A stretch of DNA of 64,000 nucleotides from Hyphomonadaceae bacterium (GTDB lineage: Bacteria; Pseudomonadota; Alphaproteobacteria; Caulobacterales; Aquidulcibacteraceae), in the NCBI GenBank assembly GCA_022841905.1, contig JALHQO010000006.1:1-64000 (forward strand). The letters are read 5' to 3'. Below the pieces are notes generated by a model that searched no databases, had not been told where the DNA came from, and worked only from the letters and a program-made list of their open reading frames with translations. The translations under genes and the position numbers were made by a program. Position 1 is the stretch's first letter, and each line of letters starts with the position of its first letter. Positions 54-38,437 of the stretch are shown piece after piece.

Positions 54-390
54 GGCTCTCCTCCGGCTCAAACCGGAAGCATACGCCGCCGGCGGGTAGG
101 AGAGCCGTCCACGGCATCGAAAGCGGACACTCAAAAAACCGATCGGGGACACCCGCGCGCAGCACAATCAGGCGAAGCTTGTCACCGGAAAAACGTGACG
201 ATGAACTCGACGCCAGACACGGCGTCATCATATCCGGACACATGTTGGATGTTGCCGCGGTGACCGTCGCTCGTCACGAGGCACTGAAAAGTGGGTGAGT
301 TTCGCCACCGGAAAAAGCTGTGATCTAAGACGTTCGCCGCAGAATGCGGCGGGATTGGATTCGAGCGGCGGGGGGCGTAACATTCTGCAA
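54..390. other. Noncoding stretch upstream of the IS110 transposase, with a hairpin over its ribosome binding site
   Basis: No convincing gene lies here. Immediately upstream of the transposase start, GGCTCTCCT (54-62) pairs perfectly with AGGAGAGCC (98-106), with an inner CCGG/CCGG stem. In the transposase transcript this hairpin would include the GGAGG ribosome binding site, a common way for insertion sequences to prevent translation from read-through transcripts. In IS110-group elements the noncoding end upstream of the transposase encodes the bridge RNA, so part of 54 to about 290 may do so. The outer element boundary was not found. Confidence 0.4.
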
Positions 391-537
391 ATGCAGCAGT
401 ATTGGCCCCCGCCAGAGGAACGCGAACGCGAGCGCCGCCGTCTGGACGCTATTCGGCCCTGGCATCGAGTCGCGTTTGTTGTGGCCGGCGTGTTCTTAGT
501 GATCGCACTTTATCTGCAATTTGCGAGCTTAGGCTAG
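391..537 (+). CDS. Possible small single-pass membrane protein
   Basis: A 48-residue open frame starting at ATG 391. It has a strongly charged N-terminal half (EERERERRRLD) followed by one hydrophobic segment at about residues 27-45 and only a few residues after it. A longer version from a GTG at 295 is possible, but that extension looks unlike protein. There is no clear ribosome binding site and no family is recognised. It sits between the insertion sequence end and the sugar-modification genes. Confidence 0.33.
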   Translation: MQQYWPPPEERERERRRLDAIRPWHRVAFVVAGVFLVIALYLQFASLG

Positions 538-765
538 CTCGCCTACGCGATTACCCTGCCGCCATTATCTGATGCTCGCGGCAGATATTGGAATTGTAAG
601 GAGTGCCTCGGCGCGCGAGATTGGTCCCTAGAGCGCGATGGCCGACGAGGGCTGTTTACGTATTTCCGTGGTTAGATGCATCTCGCATCGATAAGCGGGC
701 AGGCGGCTTAAGCAGGCCCGCCAATAGGCCTGCCGATGCGCAGGCGCTTCGATAGGGACACTCGG

Positions 766-1878
766 ATGATTTCCGTCTTCGGTTCGGACATTGGCGACGC
801 AGAGATCGCAGCCGTTACCGCTTGCATGAAGTCGCAGTGGTTGGGCTTCGGCAAGAAAGTCGAGGAATTTGAAGCCGCCTTCGCGGATAGGCTTAATCTG
901 CCCTCCTTCGTGATGGTCGATAGTGGCTCGAACGCCTTATACATGGCTCTCGTTCTCTTGGACCTGCCGCGCGGCTCTGAAGTCATTGTCCCATCCTTTA
1001 CTTGGGTCTCCTGCGCGCAAGCGGTCCTCCTGGCTGGTCTAAAGCCTGTGTTCTGCGATGTGGACGCCGACACAATGAACGCTCGCGACATCGATGTGGA
1101 AGCACGCATTAGCTCGAAAACCTCTGCGATCATGGTTGTTCATTATGCAGGATTGCCGGTGCAGATGGACGCCATCCTGCGCTTTGGCTTGCCTGTGATC
1201 GAAGACGCGGCGCACGCCGTCGATGCAAAGTGGCGAGGCCGGTCGTGCGGGAGCATAGGCGAGGTCGGAATCTATAGCTTCGATGCCGTGAAAAATCTCA
1301 CCGCGGGCGAGGGCGGGGGCATCACCGCCAAGGACGCGACCAAGAGCGCACGCGCTAAGCATCTGCGCTATTGCGGTATCGGCAAATCCGGCTTTGAGGC
1401 CGCGACGTCCGCGCCCTCGTTAGCTCGCTGGTGGGAATACGACATCAAAGAGCCGTTCATCAAAATGCTGCCCACCAATATCGCTGCGTCCATCGCTGCG
1501 GTGCAATTGTCTCGCCTCGACGACCTTCAAGCCCGCAGGCGCGCGATATGGGACAGATACGACGCCGAGCTTGGAGATCTTGGGGGATTGGTTCTGCCTA
1601 AGTCAGCGTCGCCAAGCGATCAGCATGGCTATTTCACCTATTGCGTACGCGCCAAAGAGCGGGACGCGCTCGCACGTGCGCTTCTCGAAGCGGGTATTTA
1701 TACCACGTTGCGCTATCATCCGTTGCATCTGAACAGGCTCTATGCCGAGACCGAACGCCGACTTCCAAATACTGAGCGGCTCAATGAGGAAGCCTTGTCG
1801 ATCCCGCTTCACCCTCGTCTCACTGATGACGATGTGACGAGGGTGATCGCGGGGATCAAGCGCTTCTATCGTCGCTGA
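766..1878 (+). CDS. DegT/DnrJ/EryC1-family sugar aminotransferase
   Basis: A 370-residue PLP-dependent fold-type I enzyme of the family that transfers an amino group from glutamate to keto-sugar nucleotides. Visible family features are the N-terminal DSGSNALYMAL helix, the IEDAAHAVDA motif with the ring-nitrogen Asp (about residue 147) and SFDAVKNLTAGEGG, whose Lys176 should form the Schiff base. The start at 766 is preferred because the homologous part begins with MISVFGSD; an in-frame ATG at 736 adds ten unlikely residues. Together with the convergent acyltransferase it could make an N-acylated amino sugar for a surface polysaccharide; the substrate is not determinable. Confidence 0.9.
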   Translation: MISVFGSDIGDAEIAAVTACMKSQWLGFGKKVEEFEAAFADRLNLPSFVMVDSGSNALYMALVLLDLPRGSEVIVPSFTWVSCAQAVLLAGLKPVFCDVDADTMNARDIDVEARISSKTSAIMVVHYAGLPVQMDAILRFGLPVIEDAAHAVDAKWRGRSCGSIGEVGIYSFDAVKNLTAGEGGGITAKDATKSARAKHLRYCGIGKSGFEAATSAPSLARWWEYDIKEPFIKMLPTNIAASIAAVQLSRLDDLQARRRAIWDRYDAELGDLGGLVLPKSASPSDQHGYFTYCVRAKERDALARALLEAGIYTTLRYHPLHLNRLYAETERRLPNTERLNEEALSIPLHPRLTDDDVTRVIAGIKRFYRR

Positions 1879-16801: not shown

Positions 16802-17274
16802 CAGTGACACTTGAACCAGTCGAATGGCTCCAGGCACGCCTTGCAGCGCCATAGCGCTTTGCAGGGTGTCGAGCCGAAGCGCGAAATTTCTTCGGTGTTG
16901 GATGAACCGCAGCGCGGGCACTCCGCCCCTTGCACGTTCTTCAACGCCGATGCAGCAGCGCCTTTCGGTGGCGGCGCGATGCCGTACGCGCGCAGCTTCT
17001 CGCGTCCTTCGTCGCTGATCCAATCGGTCGACCAAGGCGGGGAGAGCGTCGTCTCAATCGCAACATGCGCGAAGCCGCCGTCATCGAGCGCTTTGCGGAT
17101 CATCTGCTCGATCGCGAGCGTCGCCGGGCAGCCGGTGTAAGTCGGTGTGATGACGACGCGCTCTGCGCTGACCTCGCGGATGATGCCGAGATCGAGCACG
17201 GAGACCGCTGGGATTTCGGGGTCGGGGACGCTGGCGAGTATTTGAAAGAGTTGATCGAAGATCTCATCCGTCAT
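16801..17274 (-). CDS. paaD: Phenylacetyl-CoA epoxidase assembly protein PaaD (MIP18/SufT-like)
   Basis: A 157-residue protein thought to help iron-sulfur or diiron cofactor assembly of the PaaABCE complex. The N-terminal MIP18/DUF59 domain has SVPDPEIPAVSVLDLGIIRE and ITPTYTGCPATLAIE with the conserved Cys. The C-terminal zinc-ribbon-like part has CPRCGSSNT and CKACLEPF. Oddly, its ATG start lies inside the end of a ~102-bp palindromic element (17269-17370) and lacks a recognisable Shine-Dalgarno sequence, whereas the other paa genes here are tightly coupled. Translation may therefore be weak or may use a different mechanism. Confidence 0.93.
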   Translation of the reverse strand: MTDEIFDQLFQILASVPDPEIPAVSVLDLGIIREVSAERVVITPTYTGCPATLAIEQMIRKALDDGGFAHVAIETTLSPPWSTDWISDEGREKLRAYGIAPPPKGAAASALKNVQGAECPRCGSSNTEEISRFGSTPCKALWRCKACLEPFDWFKCH

Positions 17275-17370
17275 CCCGGACGCGCGAAGCGCGATCCGGG
17301 ACCCCGGGGCAAACGGTGCGGCCGTGGCTCCTGGGTCCCGGGTCTTCACTTCGTGAACCCCGGGATGACG
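17269..17370. repeat. Dispersed ~102-bp multi-hairpin palindromic element, copy A
   Basis: Terminal inverted repeats CGTCATCCCGG / CCGGGATGACG enclose two small hairpins and a central stem (GGGACCCCGGGGC against CTCCTGGGTCCC). Related copies lie at 24390-24490 and 38334-38437, sharing the termini, the central GGCAA block and the overall hairpin order but differing in loop sequence. Copy A fills most of the 110-base gap between paaC and paaD and contributes the ATG of paaD (CCGGG-ATG-ACG, minus strand). Confidence 0.88.
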
Positions 17371-23517: not shown

Positions 23518-24735
23518 TCAATCTTCCAGCGGCCAAGTTTCAAGGACTTCGACAAAACGCGTAAGCCAGGCATTGGTCTGGTGCCCGTCGAGCACGCGGT
23601 GGTCGATGGTAAGCGATACGTACGCCATCGGCTTGATCACCATCGCATCGGCGCCGCCCACGCTGCGCACGACAACGCGCTTCTCCAGCTTGCCGACGCC
23701 AAGGATCGCCGATTGCGGCTGATTGATAATGATCGGTGCCGCAACGAGCGAGCCGGAGACGCCGTGATTGGAAATCGAAAATGTGCCGCCTTGCACATCC
23801 GCCGGCTTCAACGCGTTCTTGCGCGCGCGTTCGGTGACATCCGTCAGCGCCGTCGCCGTTTCCTTGAGCGTCAGCGCCTGCGCGCGCTTGATCACAGGAA
23901 CAATGAGTCCTTTGTCGCCGAGCGCTACGCCCATGCCGATGTTCGCGTCTTCGAACACTTCGAGGAAATCGTCATGCCAGCGTGCATTGACGTTCGGCGA
24001 AGCCTTCATCGCCTCCGCCGCCGCGCGCACGATGTAAGCGGAGAATGTGAGCTGCGCGCCGCTCTTGGCGTATGTGTCCTTGTGCTTGGCGCGGTGCGCC
24101 ATGATCGCGGAAAAATCCGCCTCAAAAACCGCGGTCACATGCGGGGCGATGGCAACCGAACGCGACATGTGTTCAGCGATGGAGCGCCGCATAGCATCGT
24201 GGGGAATCTTGCCGCCTTTCACGGGCGCAGTAGGCGCCGCCGGTTTCGCCGGCCCACGCGCGATGTGATCTTCAACGTCCTTGTGGGTGATCCGCCCATC
24301 GCGGCCCGTGCCGGCGATGTCGGTTGCATCGAGACGGTGATCCGACAGCAACCGCTTCACTAGCGGAGAGAGGCGCTGCTCTGTTCCACCGTCATTCCGG
24401 GCGGAGCGAAGCGAAGACCCGGAACCCAGGGCAACCGGCGCGATGCTTGCCCCTGGGTCCCGGACCGCGCTCCGCGCGTTCGGGAGGACGGAGGTATTGA
24501 GCGAAAGGACACCCAATGTCGCCCCCGGCGCCGCTTCATCGCCTTCGCCGAGCGCGATCGACGTCAACACGCCATCCGCCGGCGCCGGCACCTCTACCGC
24601 GACCTTATCCGTCTCCAACTCAACGATCGGCTCGTCCTGCTTCACCGCGTCGCCGATCTTCTTCAGCCACGCGCGCACGACCGACTTGGAGCCCTCTTGC
24701 TCCAACGGCATGACGATGTTCATCGCGTCGGCCAT
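23518..24735 (-). CDS. Dihydrolipoamide acyltransferase (E2) of a branched-chain 2-oxoacid dehydrogenase complex
   Basis: A 405-residue E2 core protein. The lipoyl domain (about 3-78) has ELETDKVAVEV with lipoyl Lys44; the peripheral-subunit-binding domain (about 119-160) has SPLVKRLLSDHRLDATDIAG; the acyltransferase domain (about 175-405) ends with TIDHRVLDGHQ, holding the catalytic His and Asp. The linker is odd: residues about 82-116 are encoded by a ~101-bp palindromic element (24390-24490) inserted in frame. It overlaps the E1 stop by one base. The absence of an E3 gene nearby is normal. Confidence 0.93.
   Translation of the reverse strand: MADAMNIVMPLEQEGSKSVVRAWLKKIGDAVKQDEPIVELETDKVAVEVPAPADGVLTSIALGEGDEAAPGATLGVLSLNTSVLPNARSAVRDPGASIAPVALGSGSSLRSARNDGGTEQRLSPLVKRLLSDHRLDATDIAGTGRDGRITHKDVEDHIARGPAKPAAPTAPVKGGKIPHDAMRRSIAEHMSRSVAIAPHVTAVFEADFSAIMAHRAKHKDTYAKSGAQLTFSAYIVRAAAEAMKASPNVNARWHDDFLEVFEDANIGMGVALGDKGLIVPVIKRAQALTLKETATALTDVTERARKNALKPADVQGGTFSISNHGVSGSLVAAPIIINQPQSAILGVGKLEKRVVVRSVGGADAMVIKPMAYVSLTIDHRVLDGHQTNAWLTRFVEVLETWPLED
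24390..24490. repeat. Dispersed palindromic element, copy B, inside the E2 coding sequence
   Basis: It has the same architecture as the copies at 17269-17370 and 38334-38437: terminus CGTCATTCCGG, central stem GGAACCCAGGGC / GCCCCTGGGTCC and a mutated right terminus (CGGGAGGACG). It lies wholly within the E2 gene and is translated (minus strand) into about 35 residues rich in Ser, Arg, Ala and Gly between the lipoyl and subunit-binding domains, where flexible linkers tolerate extra sequence. It is comparable in concept to Rickettsia palindromic elements. Confidence 0.88.
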
Positions 24736-26813
24736 CAGAACGCGACCTGCTCTTGCATCTTCGCCGCGAGGCGCTCGACCGAAGGCAGCGCCCACTCCAT
24801 CAGCTCGGGATGGTGCGGAGAGGGGATGTCCGGCATCGTCATGCGCGCGATTGGCGCGTCGAGATCGAGGAATGCGCGATCCGCAACGACGGCCGCGATC
24901 TCGGCGCCGAAGCCTGCTGTGCCGATATCTTCGTGCACGATGAAGCAGCGATGCGTGCGCTTGACGGACGCGAGCACCGCGTCGCTGTCCCACGGCGCGA
25001 GCGTGCGCAGGTCGATGATATCGGCGCTGACGCCAGCCGCGTCCGCCGCCGCCTCGCAGCGTTCGACCATGGCGCCCCAAGCGACGACGGTGATGTCGCT
25101 GCCCTCACGCACGCGCTTAGCGACGCCGAACGGCAGCGCGAAATCATCGCCCGGATAAGGGCGGCGCGCGCTGGCGGCGTCGAGCATGTTGCGGTGTTCG
25201 AGGAACATCACCGGGTCGTTGCCGCGCAGGGCTGTGCGCAGCAAACCGACTGCGTCCTCTGCGTTCGACGGGCACGCCACGCGCCAGCCCGGCGCGTGCA
25301 CGAATTGCACTTCGTTGGTCTGCGAATGCCAAGGATCGCCGCACTTGAAGAAGCCGACCGGCATGCGCACCACCATCGGCGCCGCGAACCGGTTGGCTGT
25401 GCGCCAGCGCATGGTGCCGCAATCATTGATCTGCTCGCATGCCGGATCGGCGTACTTACGGAACTGAATTTCCGGTACCGGCATCAGCCCGGCAATCGCC
25501 ATGCCGACGGCGCGGCCGATAATGCCTTCCTCGGAGAGCGAGGTATCGAACACGCGGCCTTCGCCATACTTCTCCTGCAAGCCGAGCGTCACGCCATGCA
25601 CGCCGCCCTTGGGGCCGACGTCCTCGCCGAAAATCAGTACGCGCGGATTGACTGCAAGCTCATGATCCAACGTGCGCCGGATCGCGGTGATCATATTGAT
25701 GCGTGCGCCTTCCGGCTTCGGCGTGTCGCTGGCGCGCGGCGCGTTATAGCCGCTGTTCCAGAGGCCGCCTTCATCTTGTAGCGCGCCGTCTTCGCTAAAC
25801 ACGAAGCGCGTCACCAGTGTGGGGTCGGAGACTGGGCGCTGATCGGCGATCTGCGCCGCCCGCGCGACGCGCTCTTTGGCCTGCTCTTCGAGCGCCGCCC
25901 ACTCTTTTTCGCTCAGCAGCGAAGGCACGACGTGCGCTTTCAGCTTCGGCAGCGGATCGCGCGCCCATTCGGCGTCGACGACATCTTTGCTCTTGTAAGC
26001 CTGCGTGTCCTGAAACGAGTGCCCCTGCAGGCGCGGCACTGTGAGGTGTAGCAACGCTGGCCCATTACCGCCGCGCACGTGCGAGACCGCTTCTCCAATC
26101 AGAGACGCTGCTTCTTCGGGATCCGTGCCGTCACCGTCGAGAACTTTCAGACCTTGGAAGCTCGCGAGATTGGCGGCGATGTTGCAGCCGGGCGTTTGCA
26201 GCCAGCTTGGCGTTGAGATGCCGTAGCCGTTATCTTCGACGTAGAAGAGCATGGGCAGCTTCAAAGTCGTCGCCATCGTTAGCGCGGCCCAGAAGCCGTT
26301 TGTCGCAACGGAAGCATCGCCGCCGAGGACGACGCCGATCGCACCGTCGTAGGCGCGATCGCCCAGAACATTCTTGTGATACTCGATCGCCTGCGCGTAG
26401 CCGGCGGTTGGCGTGTATTGCGCGCCGACACCGCCGCACATGGGCAGCGCTGAGGCGCCGTTGGCATTGGGATAGTTGAACACAACGCCGATATCGCGCC
26501 CGTCGCTATAGCCGCCGGCGCGGCCCATCGCTGAACCCAGCGCGTCTTCGAGTGCGACTCCAAGCGAGAGCAGAATCGGACGCGAGCGGTAGTAGCCGCA
26601 CACGGCGTCCTTCGGGTGCGTGAGGTCTAAGCCGAGCAGCACTTGCGCCATGTCGTGGCCGCGGGCGCTGAACTGGTAGAAAATCTTCTTGCCCGGGACG
26701 AGCGTGGTTTCCTCGATCGCGTCCATGGCCCGCGAGCAGTGGACGAGTTCGGCGACCCGGCGCCAATCGGTCTCGACGGCGGGGCGGGGGGCTGACTTGG
26801 GTTTGGCGCTCAT
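24735..26813 (-). CDS. Branched-chain 2-oxoacid dehydrogenase E1, alpha and beta subunits fused
   Basis: A 692-residue thiamine diphosphate enzyme. The alpha half (about 1-340) has GVVLGGDASVATNGFWAALT, the ThDP/Mg GDG-type motif, and EDNGYGISTPS. The beta half (about 365-692) has VLIFGEDVGPKGGVHGVTLG, DTSLSEEGIIGRAVGMAIAG and RMPVGFFKCGDPWHSQ. Two-chain E1 enzymes are usual for this complex; the fusion is a known variant. The start at 26813 (MSAKPKS) is preferred over an ATG seven codons upstream. It is first in the E1-E2-aminotransferase operon and divergent from an Lrp/AsnC gene, the usual regulator of such operons. Confidence 0.93.
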   Translation of the reverse strand: MSAKPKSAPRPAVETDWRRVAELVHCSRAMDAIEETTLVPGKKIFYQFSARGHDMAQVLLGLDLTHPKDAVCGYYRSRPILLSLGVALEDALGSAMGRAGGYSDGRDIGVVFNYPNANGASALPMCGGVGAQYTPTAGYAQAIEYHKNVLGDRAYDGAIGVVLGGDASVATNGFWAALTMATTLKLPMLFYVEDNGYGISTPSWLQTPGCNIAANLASFQGLKVLDGDGTDPEEAASLIGEAVSHVRGGNGPALLHLTVPRLQGHSFQDTQAYKSKDVVDAEWARDPLPKLKAHVVPSLLSEKEWAALEEQAKERVARAAQIADQRPVSDPTLVTRFVFSEDGALQDEGGLWNSGYNAPRASDTPKPEGARINMITAIRRTLDHELAVNPRVLIFGEDVGPKGGVHGVTLGLQEKYGEGRVFDTSLSEEGIIGRAVGMAIAGLMPVPEIQFRKYADPACEQINDCGTMRWRTANRFAAPMVVRMPVGFFKCGDPWHSQTNEVQFVHAPGWRVACPSNAEDAVGLLRTALRGNDPVMFLEHRNMLDAASARRPYPGDDFALPFGVAKRVREGSDITVVAWGAMVERCEAAADAAGVSADIIDLRTLAPWDSDAVLASVKRTHRCFIVHEDIGTAGFGAEIAAVVADRAFLDLDAPIARMTMPDIPSPHHPELMEWALPSVERLAAKMQEQVAF

Positions 26814-26874
26814 GGAATGCGAGAATACTGGCATTCCAGCGCAATATCTGCGACATTACGGTCATATTTGTCGC
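26814..26874. promoter_or_regulatory. Inverted repeats in the E1/Lrp divergent gap
   Basis: The 77-base gap holds two dyads: GGAATGC (26814-26820) with GCATTCC (26831-26837), and GCGACA (26850-26855) with TGTCGC (26869-26874). The second encloses AT-rich sequence containing TCATAT. Lrp/AsnC regulators bind such imperfect dyads and typically control their divergent neighbour and themselves, so these are candidate operators. No binding consensus was tested. Confidence 0.42.
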
Positions 26875-38333: not shown

Positions 38334-38437
38334 CGTCATTCCGGGGCATCGCGCAGCGATGAGCCCGGAACCCAGGGGCAAACGATGTGCTGGCGGCCCC
38401 TGGGTTCCGGATCGCGCTTCGCGCGTCCGGAATGACG
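38334..38437. repeat. Dispersed palindromic element, copy C
   Basis: It has intact termini CGTCATTCCGG / CCGGAATGACG and a long central stem (CCGGAACCCAGGGGC with GCCCCTGGGTTCCGG), plus two small outer hairpins. It ends 20 bases before the GTG of the hydroxyisobutyryl-CoA hydrolase, so it lies in that gene's leader. It is the best-preserved of the three copies. Confidence 0.9.

Follow-up and report, generated by a model that had tools for sequence, protein, structure and literature searches.

Palindromic repeats of several families lie in frame in an E2 linker and a TrmFO loop of one Caulobacterales genus

We found two protein sites in one Caulobacterales genus, the first linker of a 2-oxoacid dehydrogenase E2 acyltransferase and a loop of TrmFO, that are each occupied in frame by palindromic repeats of more than one family. 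The stretch of DNA that was analysed (the window, 64,000 nucleotides) lies in the genome called G000, whose sister is G001, and its E2 gene holds a 101-bp quasi-palindrome that is CGTC-tagged and REP-dimer-like. The best explanation as a whole, to which we give a probability of about 0.8, is that this element is a short non-autonomous palindromic repeat dispersed through the genus, that it was captured in frame in the E2 linker before G000 and G001 split, that different families have entered tolerant sites at different times, and that the alleles have been exchanged by recombination. Neither intragenic REPs nor the protein-coding palindromes of Rickettsia, described long ago, are new; what is new here is that two fixed protein sites are each filled by unrelated families. 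The features of the window are as follows.

23518 to 24735, minus strand: E2 acyltransferase gene, 405 aa, with lipoyl, E3-binding and catalytic domains and the element in its first linker
24735 to 26834, minus strand: fused E1 ORF directly upstream of E2, whose C-terminal part went into one tree together with the E2 domains
24390 to 24490, unstranded: class A CGTC-tagged palindromic element, 101 bp, its minus-strand reading giving E2 residues 82-116
17269 to 17370, unstranded: second class A copy in the window, between called genes
38334 to 38437, unstranded: third class A copy in the window, where an enoyl-CoA hydratase ORF begins

On the minus strand the E2 gene runs from an ATG at 24735 to a stop that ends at 23518. 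The element, with ends taken from an alignment, is bounded on the plus strand by CGTC...GACG at exactly 24390-24490 and covers codons 82-116, leaving the reading frame open. In a query that starts one codon before the ATG, Pfam placed the lipoyl domain at residues 12-77 and the E3-binding domain at 123-156, and the element therefore lies in the linker between them, which is 44 aa long in G000. An earlier note on this DNA had described three related copies in the window, one of them encoding E2 residues 82-116 in frame between the lipoyl and subunit-binding domains, and these observations all held. In the enoyl-CoA hydratase ORF the Pfam match starts only at residue 42-46, so the true start codon probably lies downstream of that copy.

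The fold of the E2 copy has an energy of -67.1 kcal/mol, with z -4.5 relative to dinucleotide shuffles, and the copies at 17269-17370 and 38334-38437 reach z values of -7.5 and -7.4 by the same measure. A consensus structure from nine copies has an outer arm of 11 pairs and an inner arm of 15, with 5 of 33 pairs changed on both sides. Rfam gave no family at threshold at the element and one tRNA in the window. GC-rich linkers generally fold well, and the palindrome could in principle have arisen by chance in an ordinary linker or through misassembly; these ideas are refuted by the fold shuffles, by 28 further places in the genome and by the same element in the separate assembly of G001, and we give them practically no credence.

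A blastn search of G000 with the element returned 35 matches, some places being counted on both strands, and a covariance model built from nine own-genome copies, including that in E2, gave 54 strand-matches at no fewer than 29 distinct places, a lower bound given that 150 of 1348 first-look candidates were scored. Among the 29 places listed, two are inside genes (E2 and trmFO), two overlap the end of an ORF and 25 lie between called genes, 20 of these no more than 50 bases from the boundary of a called gene; the gene caller is rough, having missed E2 through its overlap rule, and E2 was added to the intragenic count by hand. The earlier note had proposed a dispersed palindromic family, with a covariance search for intragenic copies as the check and a family confined to the window trio as the finding that would speak against it. 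The search bore the proposal out, with at least 29 places in G000 and with E2 and trmFO as the intragenic copies. There was no bias of class A toward open frames, 9 to 18 of the 29 copies being open per frame where about 14 are expected from mononucleotide shuffles. Class A was present in all 30 congeneric genomes, with 2 to 131 strand-matches each among the 132 candidates scored per genome.

Most G000 copies (24/29, that in E2 included) start with CGTC, and the E2 copy, which alone was scored for this trait, has a CCA tail after the stem, CCCGGAACCCAGGG. Class A thus shares with the CGTC superfamily a stem-loop ending in CGTC, the CCA tail and a head-to-head dimer with a structured spacer; like the superfamily it is seen without a dedicated transposase as far as the Y1 family goes, PF01797 not being found in G000. 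Passages of Di Nocera, De Gregorio and Rocco 2013 (PMC3733652) describe CGTC-tagged REPs as mostly intergenic, with some wholly inside ORFs, as found chiefly in Alphaproteobacteria and as having no association with a transposase. The end tag, the CCA after the first stem and the spaced head-to-head dimer of class A match that description, whereas its unit loop exceeds the 4-5 nt given in those passages for families 1-4. Class A belongs to none of CGTC-1 to CGTC-4, which have a stem of 8-9 bp, complementary AT at the first two positions and a loop of 4-5 nt: its units have a longer loop and their first A stands opposite C.

An E2 or a paralogue was found in all 61 genomes searched, and linkers were compared in 28 orthologues from the 30 congeneric genomes and in two outgroups, leaving out G002, where no E2 orthologue was found, and G014, whose E2 (L112) is frame-broken in the assembly. 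By eye, the G014 E2 shows no palindrome. The linker carries a palindromic repeat in 22 of the 28 congeners, with class A in nine, class B in nine, class C in four and none in six. Six of the class A copies have the G000 orientation and three (G010, G011, G012) are reversed. Class B linkers read GGACCGCCGGCTTCCAGCCGGC...inverted copy and class C linkers TTGGACCGCCGGCGTCCTCGCCGGC...inverted copy, each with variants (n=9 and n=4); both have the core GGACCGCCGGC and may be branches of one family. These labels were assigned by eye before the fold test, in which, with dinucleotide shuffles, all 22 repeat linkers gave z values of -2.0 or lower and the six other congeners and two outgroups -1.0 or higher. 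The genomes searched contain 6 to 68 matches each to class B and 48 to 116 to class C, counting both strands and single arms at E values up to 0.1.

Mean linker length is 41.5 aa in the 22 congeners with a repeat and 38.2 aa in the six that lack one, and the range is 33-49 aa whatever the family. Linkers are hardly longer with a repeat than without one; the repeats have therefore displaced linker sequence and not lengthened it by some 33 residues, and deletion or recombination probably restored the length. The earlier note had expected element-free relatives to have a linker about 35 residues shorter, yet the linkers of the six palindrome-free congeners are unrelated and 36-41 aa long, where that of G000 has 44. 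Two of these non-palindromic linkers, in G004 and G029, end in ARND and SRND. The second E2 linker, which joins the E3-binding domain to the catalytic domain, is extended to 38-77 aa in L030 (G006), L033 (G011), L037 (G009) and L038 (G028), in some with peptides resembling repeats, such as RPLSHAARDSS and PPLAGEV.

The constant length could also mean that the repeats are adaptive, ready-made linker segments kept by selection for length and flexibility, and the class C arms, which read GPPxxxPA in four E2 linkers, a hydantoinase ORF, an RsmE-type gene and the start of a transposase ORF, would suit such a role. We regard this as quite unlikely: the class B arms (mostly DRRLPAG) and class A arms (VIPDARSAI or alike) are not ideal linkers, and six of the 28 congeners do without a repeat.

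The E2 element is not recent in G000, because the E2 of sister G001 carries the same class A element. A 19.9-kb comparison with G001, G019, G004 and G029, made to look for empty sites in the window, included one G001 match spanning both the E2 copy and that at 38334. The earlier note had suggested checking whether close relatives lack the segment, and sister G001 does not; most simply, the capture in frame predates the split of G000 and G001. No empty E2 site in a sister with the remaining linker unchanged was found among the congeners compared, and insertion into E2 is for that reason inferred.

Trees were built from E2 domains, or from E1 and E2 domains, with the linkers excluded; many branches are weak. 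Two sister pairs differ in family, namely G012 (class A) and G013 (class B), with support of 100/100 in the E1 and E2 tree and 85/81 from the E2 domains alone, and G011 (class A) and G028 (class C), with 100/95 and 94/85. Within these pairs the linker DNA is 35% and 32% identical, respectively, against 77-84% for the domains. Conversely, the class C linkers of G021 and G028 are 94% identical in DNA where the lipoyl domains reach 75%, which we read as pointing to allele transfer. The trees require 14 changes among the five E2 labels, where shuffled labels average 17.6 and 17.7, so the labels are somewhat clustered; the starred branches alone force only 1 to 3 changes per label. Such label changes would overcount insertions if alleles are exchanged, as G021 and G028 suggest, and recombination between species keeps insertion events from being counted on the trees.

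The second intragenic class A copy of G000 lies in trmFO (PF01134, E 2.4e-98), where the insert peptide SVIPDAQSAIRDPG...SGRDDE is followed by the conserved ATGPLTS. This loop is occupied in 12 of the 24 assessable congeners (25 were searched), as listed here.

Class A inserts in trmFO: G000 and G020 in one 5' frame; G007, G012 and G013 in another 5' frame
Class E inserts in trmFO: G005, G003, G006 and G023; E-like in G022
Class F inserts in trmFO: G021 and G017
Empty trmFO loops: 11 read with 49-residue spacing, sister G001 included; G011 inferred empty

In this count G011 was scored empty from abutting matches without a locus, the truncated G015 trmFO was dropped and the frame-broken G023 trmFO was entered as occupied only. 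The reading frames of G014 (L112) and G023 (L135) are probably broken by assembly errors. Three or more families (A in two 5' frames, E, E-like and F) thus stand at one turn. Class E gave 3 to 26 matches per genome over six genomes, and class F 42 in G017, 34 in G021 and one weak match in G000. Judged by sequence alone, the kinds present are class A in two orientations and a second group with B and C variants in E2, and A, E, E-like and F in trmFO, where a relationship between E and E-like is possible. There may have been more insertion events than these kinds.

Outside this set the loop is mostly plain. The six outgroup genomes read have a trmFO without insert (ten further outgroup TrmFO matches were left out of the reading), and the spacing is 45-46 aa in 78 of 80 loci of named genomes. 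In L228, from the alphaproteobacterium isolate STD2_20, it is 53, seven residues above the usual. L158, from Caulobacterales bacterium UWPOB_CAULO3, has a 64-residue TrmFO sequence identical to that of G005, and this identity is our ground for assigning the genus to Caulobacterales. In a model of the L158 protein, residues 131-147, which belong to the class E insert, have pLDDT below 50. In an alignment with Thermus TrmFO (3g5q) the insert site is a gap before the strand leading to ATGPLTS. The empty loop of G002 also folds well (z -2.2).

The trmFO copy is present in G000 and absent in sister G001, which indirectly bears out the earlier note's proposal of a mobile element. In 30-nt windows the trmFO genes of G000 and G001 are 86-96% identical at residues 71-110 and 90-100% at 181-230, with dips to 73% at 111-120, 40% at 121-130 and 63% at 171-180; in the dips G000 and G020 share 90%, 83% and 80%, respectively, and through the insert 76-100%. 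These windows around the insert, like G020 and unlike G001, look as if the insert had been imported into G000 by recombination in a G020-like tract of about 200 bp. In a trmFO tree bearing family labels and built without the frame-broken G023, G000 and G001 are sisters (96/83), as are the empty G008 and the filled G017 (98/91), and the labels need 10 changes against 10.4 when shuffled, hardly fewer. An upstream Gln (DQLL or HQLL) stands in all five class A trmFO inserts and in no other TrmFO read, so that the five may stem from one insertion that spread and was partly re-framed. The class E inserts of G005, G003, G006 and G023 and the class F inserts of G017 and G021 may each go back to one insertion too. 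Independent insertion of every class A trmFO copy, which was also considered, is weakened by the shared Gln codon.

A single origin might extend further, the families at a site being one sequence that has diverged, with intermediates expected. The class A frame in E2 is identical at both ends in all nine cases, the class A trmFO alleles have flanking codons in common, and the ARND and SRND linker ends of G004 and G029 could be a decayed class A end. We nevertheless hold this to be very unlikely: the arms of A, B/C, E and F differ and each class matches many places in the genomes concerned, class A stands in E2 in both orientations, and trmFO lacks an insert in the eleven congeners and six outgroup genomes read.

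Other linkers served as controls in 20 regions of E2 paralogues, 15 putatively SucB (2-oxoglutarate dehydrogenase E2) and five PDH, names that are our reading of their sequences; the PDH locus L239 did not parse. The SucB linker is also Ala/Pro-rich, and no pattern of class A, B/C, E or F was found in it in 15 of 15 congeneric genomes, its fold z with codon shuffles being -0.7 to 1.8 in 14 of them and -2.2 in the repeat-free G010. In L257 a class B/C repeat lies about 11 bases past the end of SucB. Among the PDH E2 linkers, those of G007 (L244) and G025 (L247) are strongly self-complementary (z -3.9 and -5.9, or -5.0 and -7.5 on a longer stretch), that of G020 (L241) encodes a similar-looking peptide at z -1.2, and nothing was seen in G019 or, from the longer stretch only, in G000. 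With SucB linkers empty and PDH E2 linkers mixed, flexibility alone does not decide occupancy. The earlier note had held the element to be tolerated because it falls in a flexible linker; its location stands, while the explanation is incomplete, given a SucB linker empty in 15/15 and a turn in folded TrmFO filled in 12/24.

Occupancy of some sites and not others could instead reflect true target hot spots, where the linker or loop DNA itself attracts a transposase or a recombination process and tolerance by the protein comes second. Both intragenic class A copies of G000 are at sites used elsewhere by other families, the SucB linkers are unoccupied (15/15), and G025 has a Y1 transposase gene flanked by class C. 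We consider such hot spots unlikely, since one site is used by families with different ends, no Y1_Tnp gene was found in G000, and dispensability of the host enzymes might also explain the choice of genes.

The Y1 transposase family (PF01797) occurs in 16 of the 30 genus genomes, against 30 of 30 for class A. In G025 (L157) a Y1 ORF at 1207-1845 on the plus strand (PF01797, E 1.1e-11) has class C repeats on both sides of its domain, while L156, the other of the two Y1 loci read, has none of the patterns sought. Both ends of the L157 ORF are class C repeats that are open in frame, and the RsmE-type gene beside it (308-1147, minus strand; PF04452) contains a class C dimer in frame. A further in-frame class C repeat lies in an ORF of G000 (L083, C13:30307-30381), between the hydantoinase A and B domain matches. 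With respect to RAYT-associated REPs, class C thus flanks a Y1 gene at one of two loci and lacks the GTAG tag, ending in TTGGACCGCC... instead. Set beside such REPs as PMC3733652 describes them, the flanking of the Y1 domain in L157 is a likeness and the TTGGACC... ends in place of GTAG are a difference; for the CGTC class no association of this kind was seen. The transposase link holds for class C and not for class A.

In our preferred reading of capture at tolerant sites, it is probably survival, not target preference, that makes the E2 and trmFO sites recurrent. The E2 linker and the TrmFO loop would be sites where insertions survive, families entering at different times, and the reading frame and protein function would filter which inserts stay. 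Insert-bearing alleles would move between species through short-tract homologous recombination, and the E2 repeat would end up replacing older linker sequence, so that the length stays near 40 residues. The repeat-bearing protein is presumably made and working. In 22 of the 28 genomes compared, repeat DNA accounts for the greater part of the interdomain linker of a conserved enzyme. That one linker or loop is filled by different families in different species suggests that mobile repeats are a continuing source of new protein segments in the genus.

Comparable sites have been described elsewhere. Passages of PMC3733652 propose that REPs might land neutrally in flexible linkers or loops and report different REPs at about the same site in recB of two Xanthomonas; relative to these, the present genus adds several families per site across its members, an empty sister and a recombination-like tract. 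The same passages place RPE-4 and RPE-6 in the CGTC superfamily, and it is on this assignment that the earlier note's likeness to Rickettsia elements now rests. RPE-4, RPE-6 and RPE-7 are described in parts of PMC3767692 as in-frame and solvent-exposed, with different groups at one orthologue site; by that description our repeats are alike. The authors offer two explanations, hot spots that took up insertions of different origin or a single insertion that has diverged; they lean to a single origin and report an insert in all Rickettsia orthologues compared. The genus studied here has empty orthologues and families with different arms, unlike those Rickettsia sets, and for these reasons it favours separate origins of the inserts at a shared site. 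As far as those parts of PMC3767692 go, the choice between hot spots and one old insertion was left undecided, and this genus can test it directly: about 30 genomes provide empty, occupied and differently occupied orthologues, empty sister sites and signs of allele transfer. Small variable segments in frame are described from E. coli and others (passages of PMC2884548), with dimorphic loci read as an insertion hot spot or as replacement of an ancestral segment; they too are intragenic and keep the frame, but here dispersed palindromic families fill one protein site. A guanylate kinase with a palindromic insert is active, as summarised in part of PMC2229807.

A bolder version, which we entertain only tentatively, is that a few linkers and loops in the genus are sites for interchangeable cassettes, where REP families replace one another serially in frame, alleles are traded between species through short-tract recombination, and selection for length makes the repeat the linker. 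If so, the swinging arm of E2 would consist of mobile repeat DNA in most species of the genus, with one REP family served by a Y1 transposase and one apparently not. Ogata and others reportedly described, in 2000 and 2002, RPE-1 and other protein-coding palindromes of about 105-146 bp in frame; the E2 element resembles RPE-1 by description alone, in its size range and in-frame position.

The class A covariance model also picked up variant palindromes in G000, with CCCATTCCCGGGG ends and an TTTATGGG inner arm. The related forms with CCCATTCCCGGGG ends are the following.

G000 C2:151764-151891 (L062): related form, from the covariance model
G000 C6:111665-111765 (L065): related form, from the covariance model
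G000 C11:129366-129508 (L067): related form, from the covariance model
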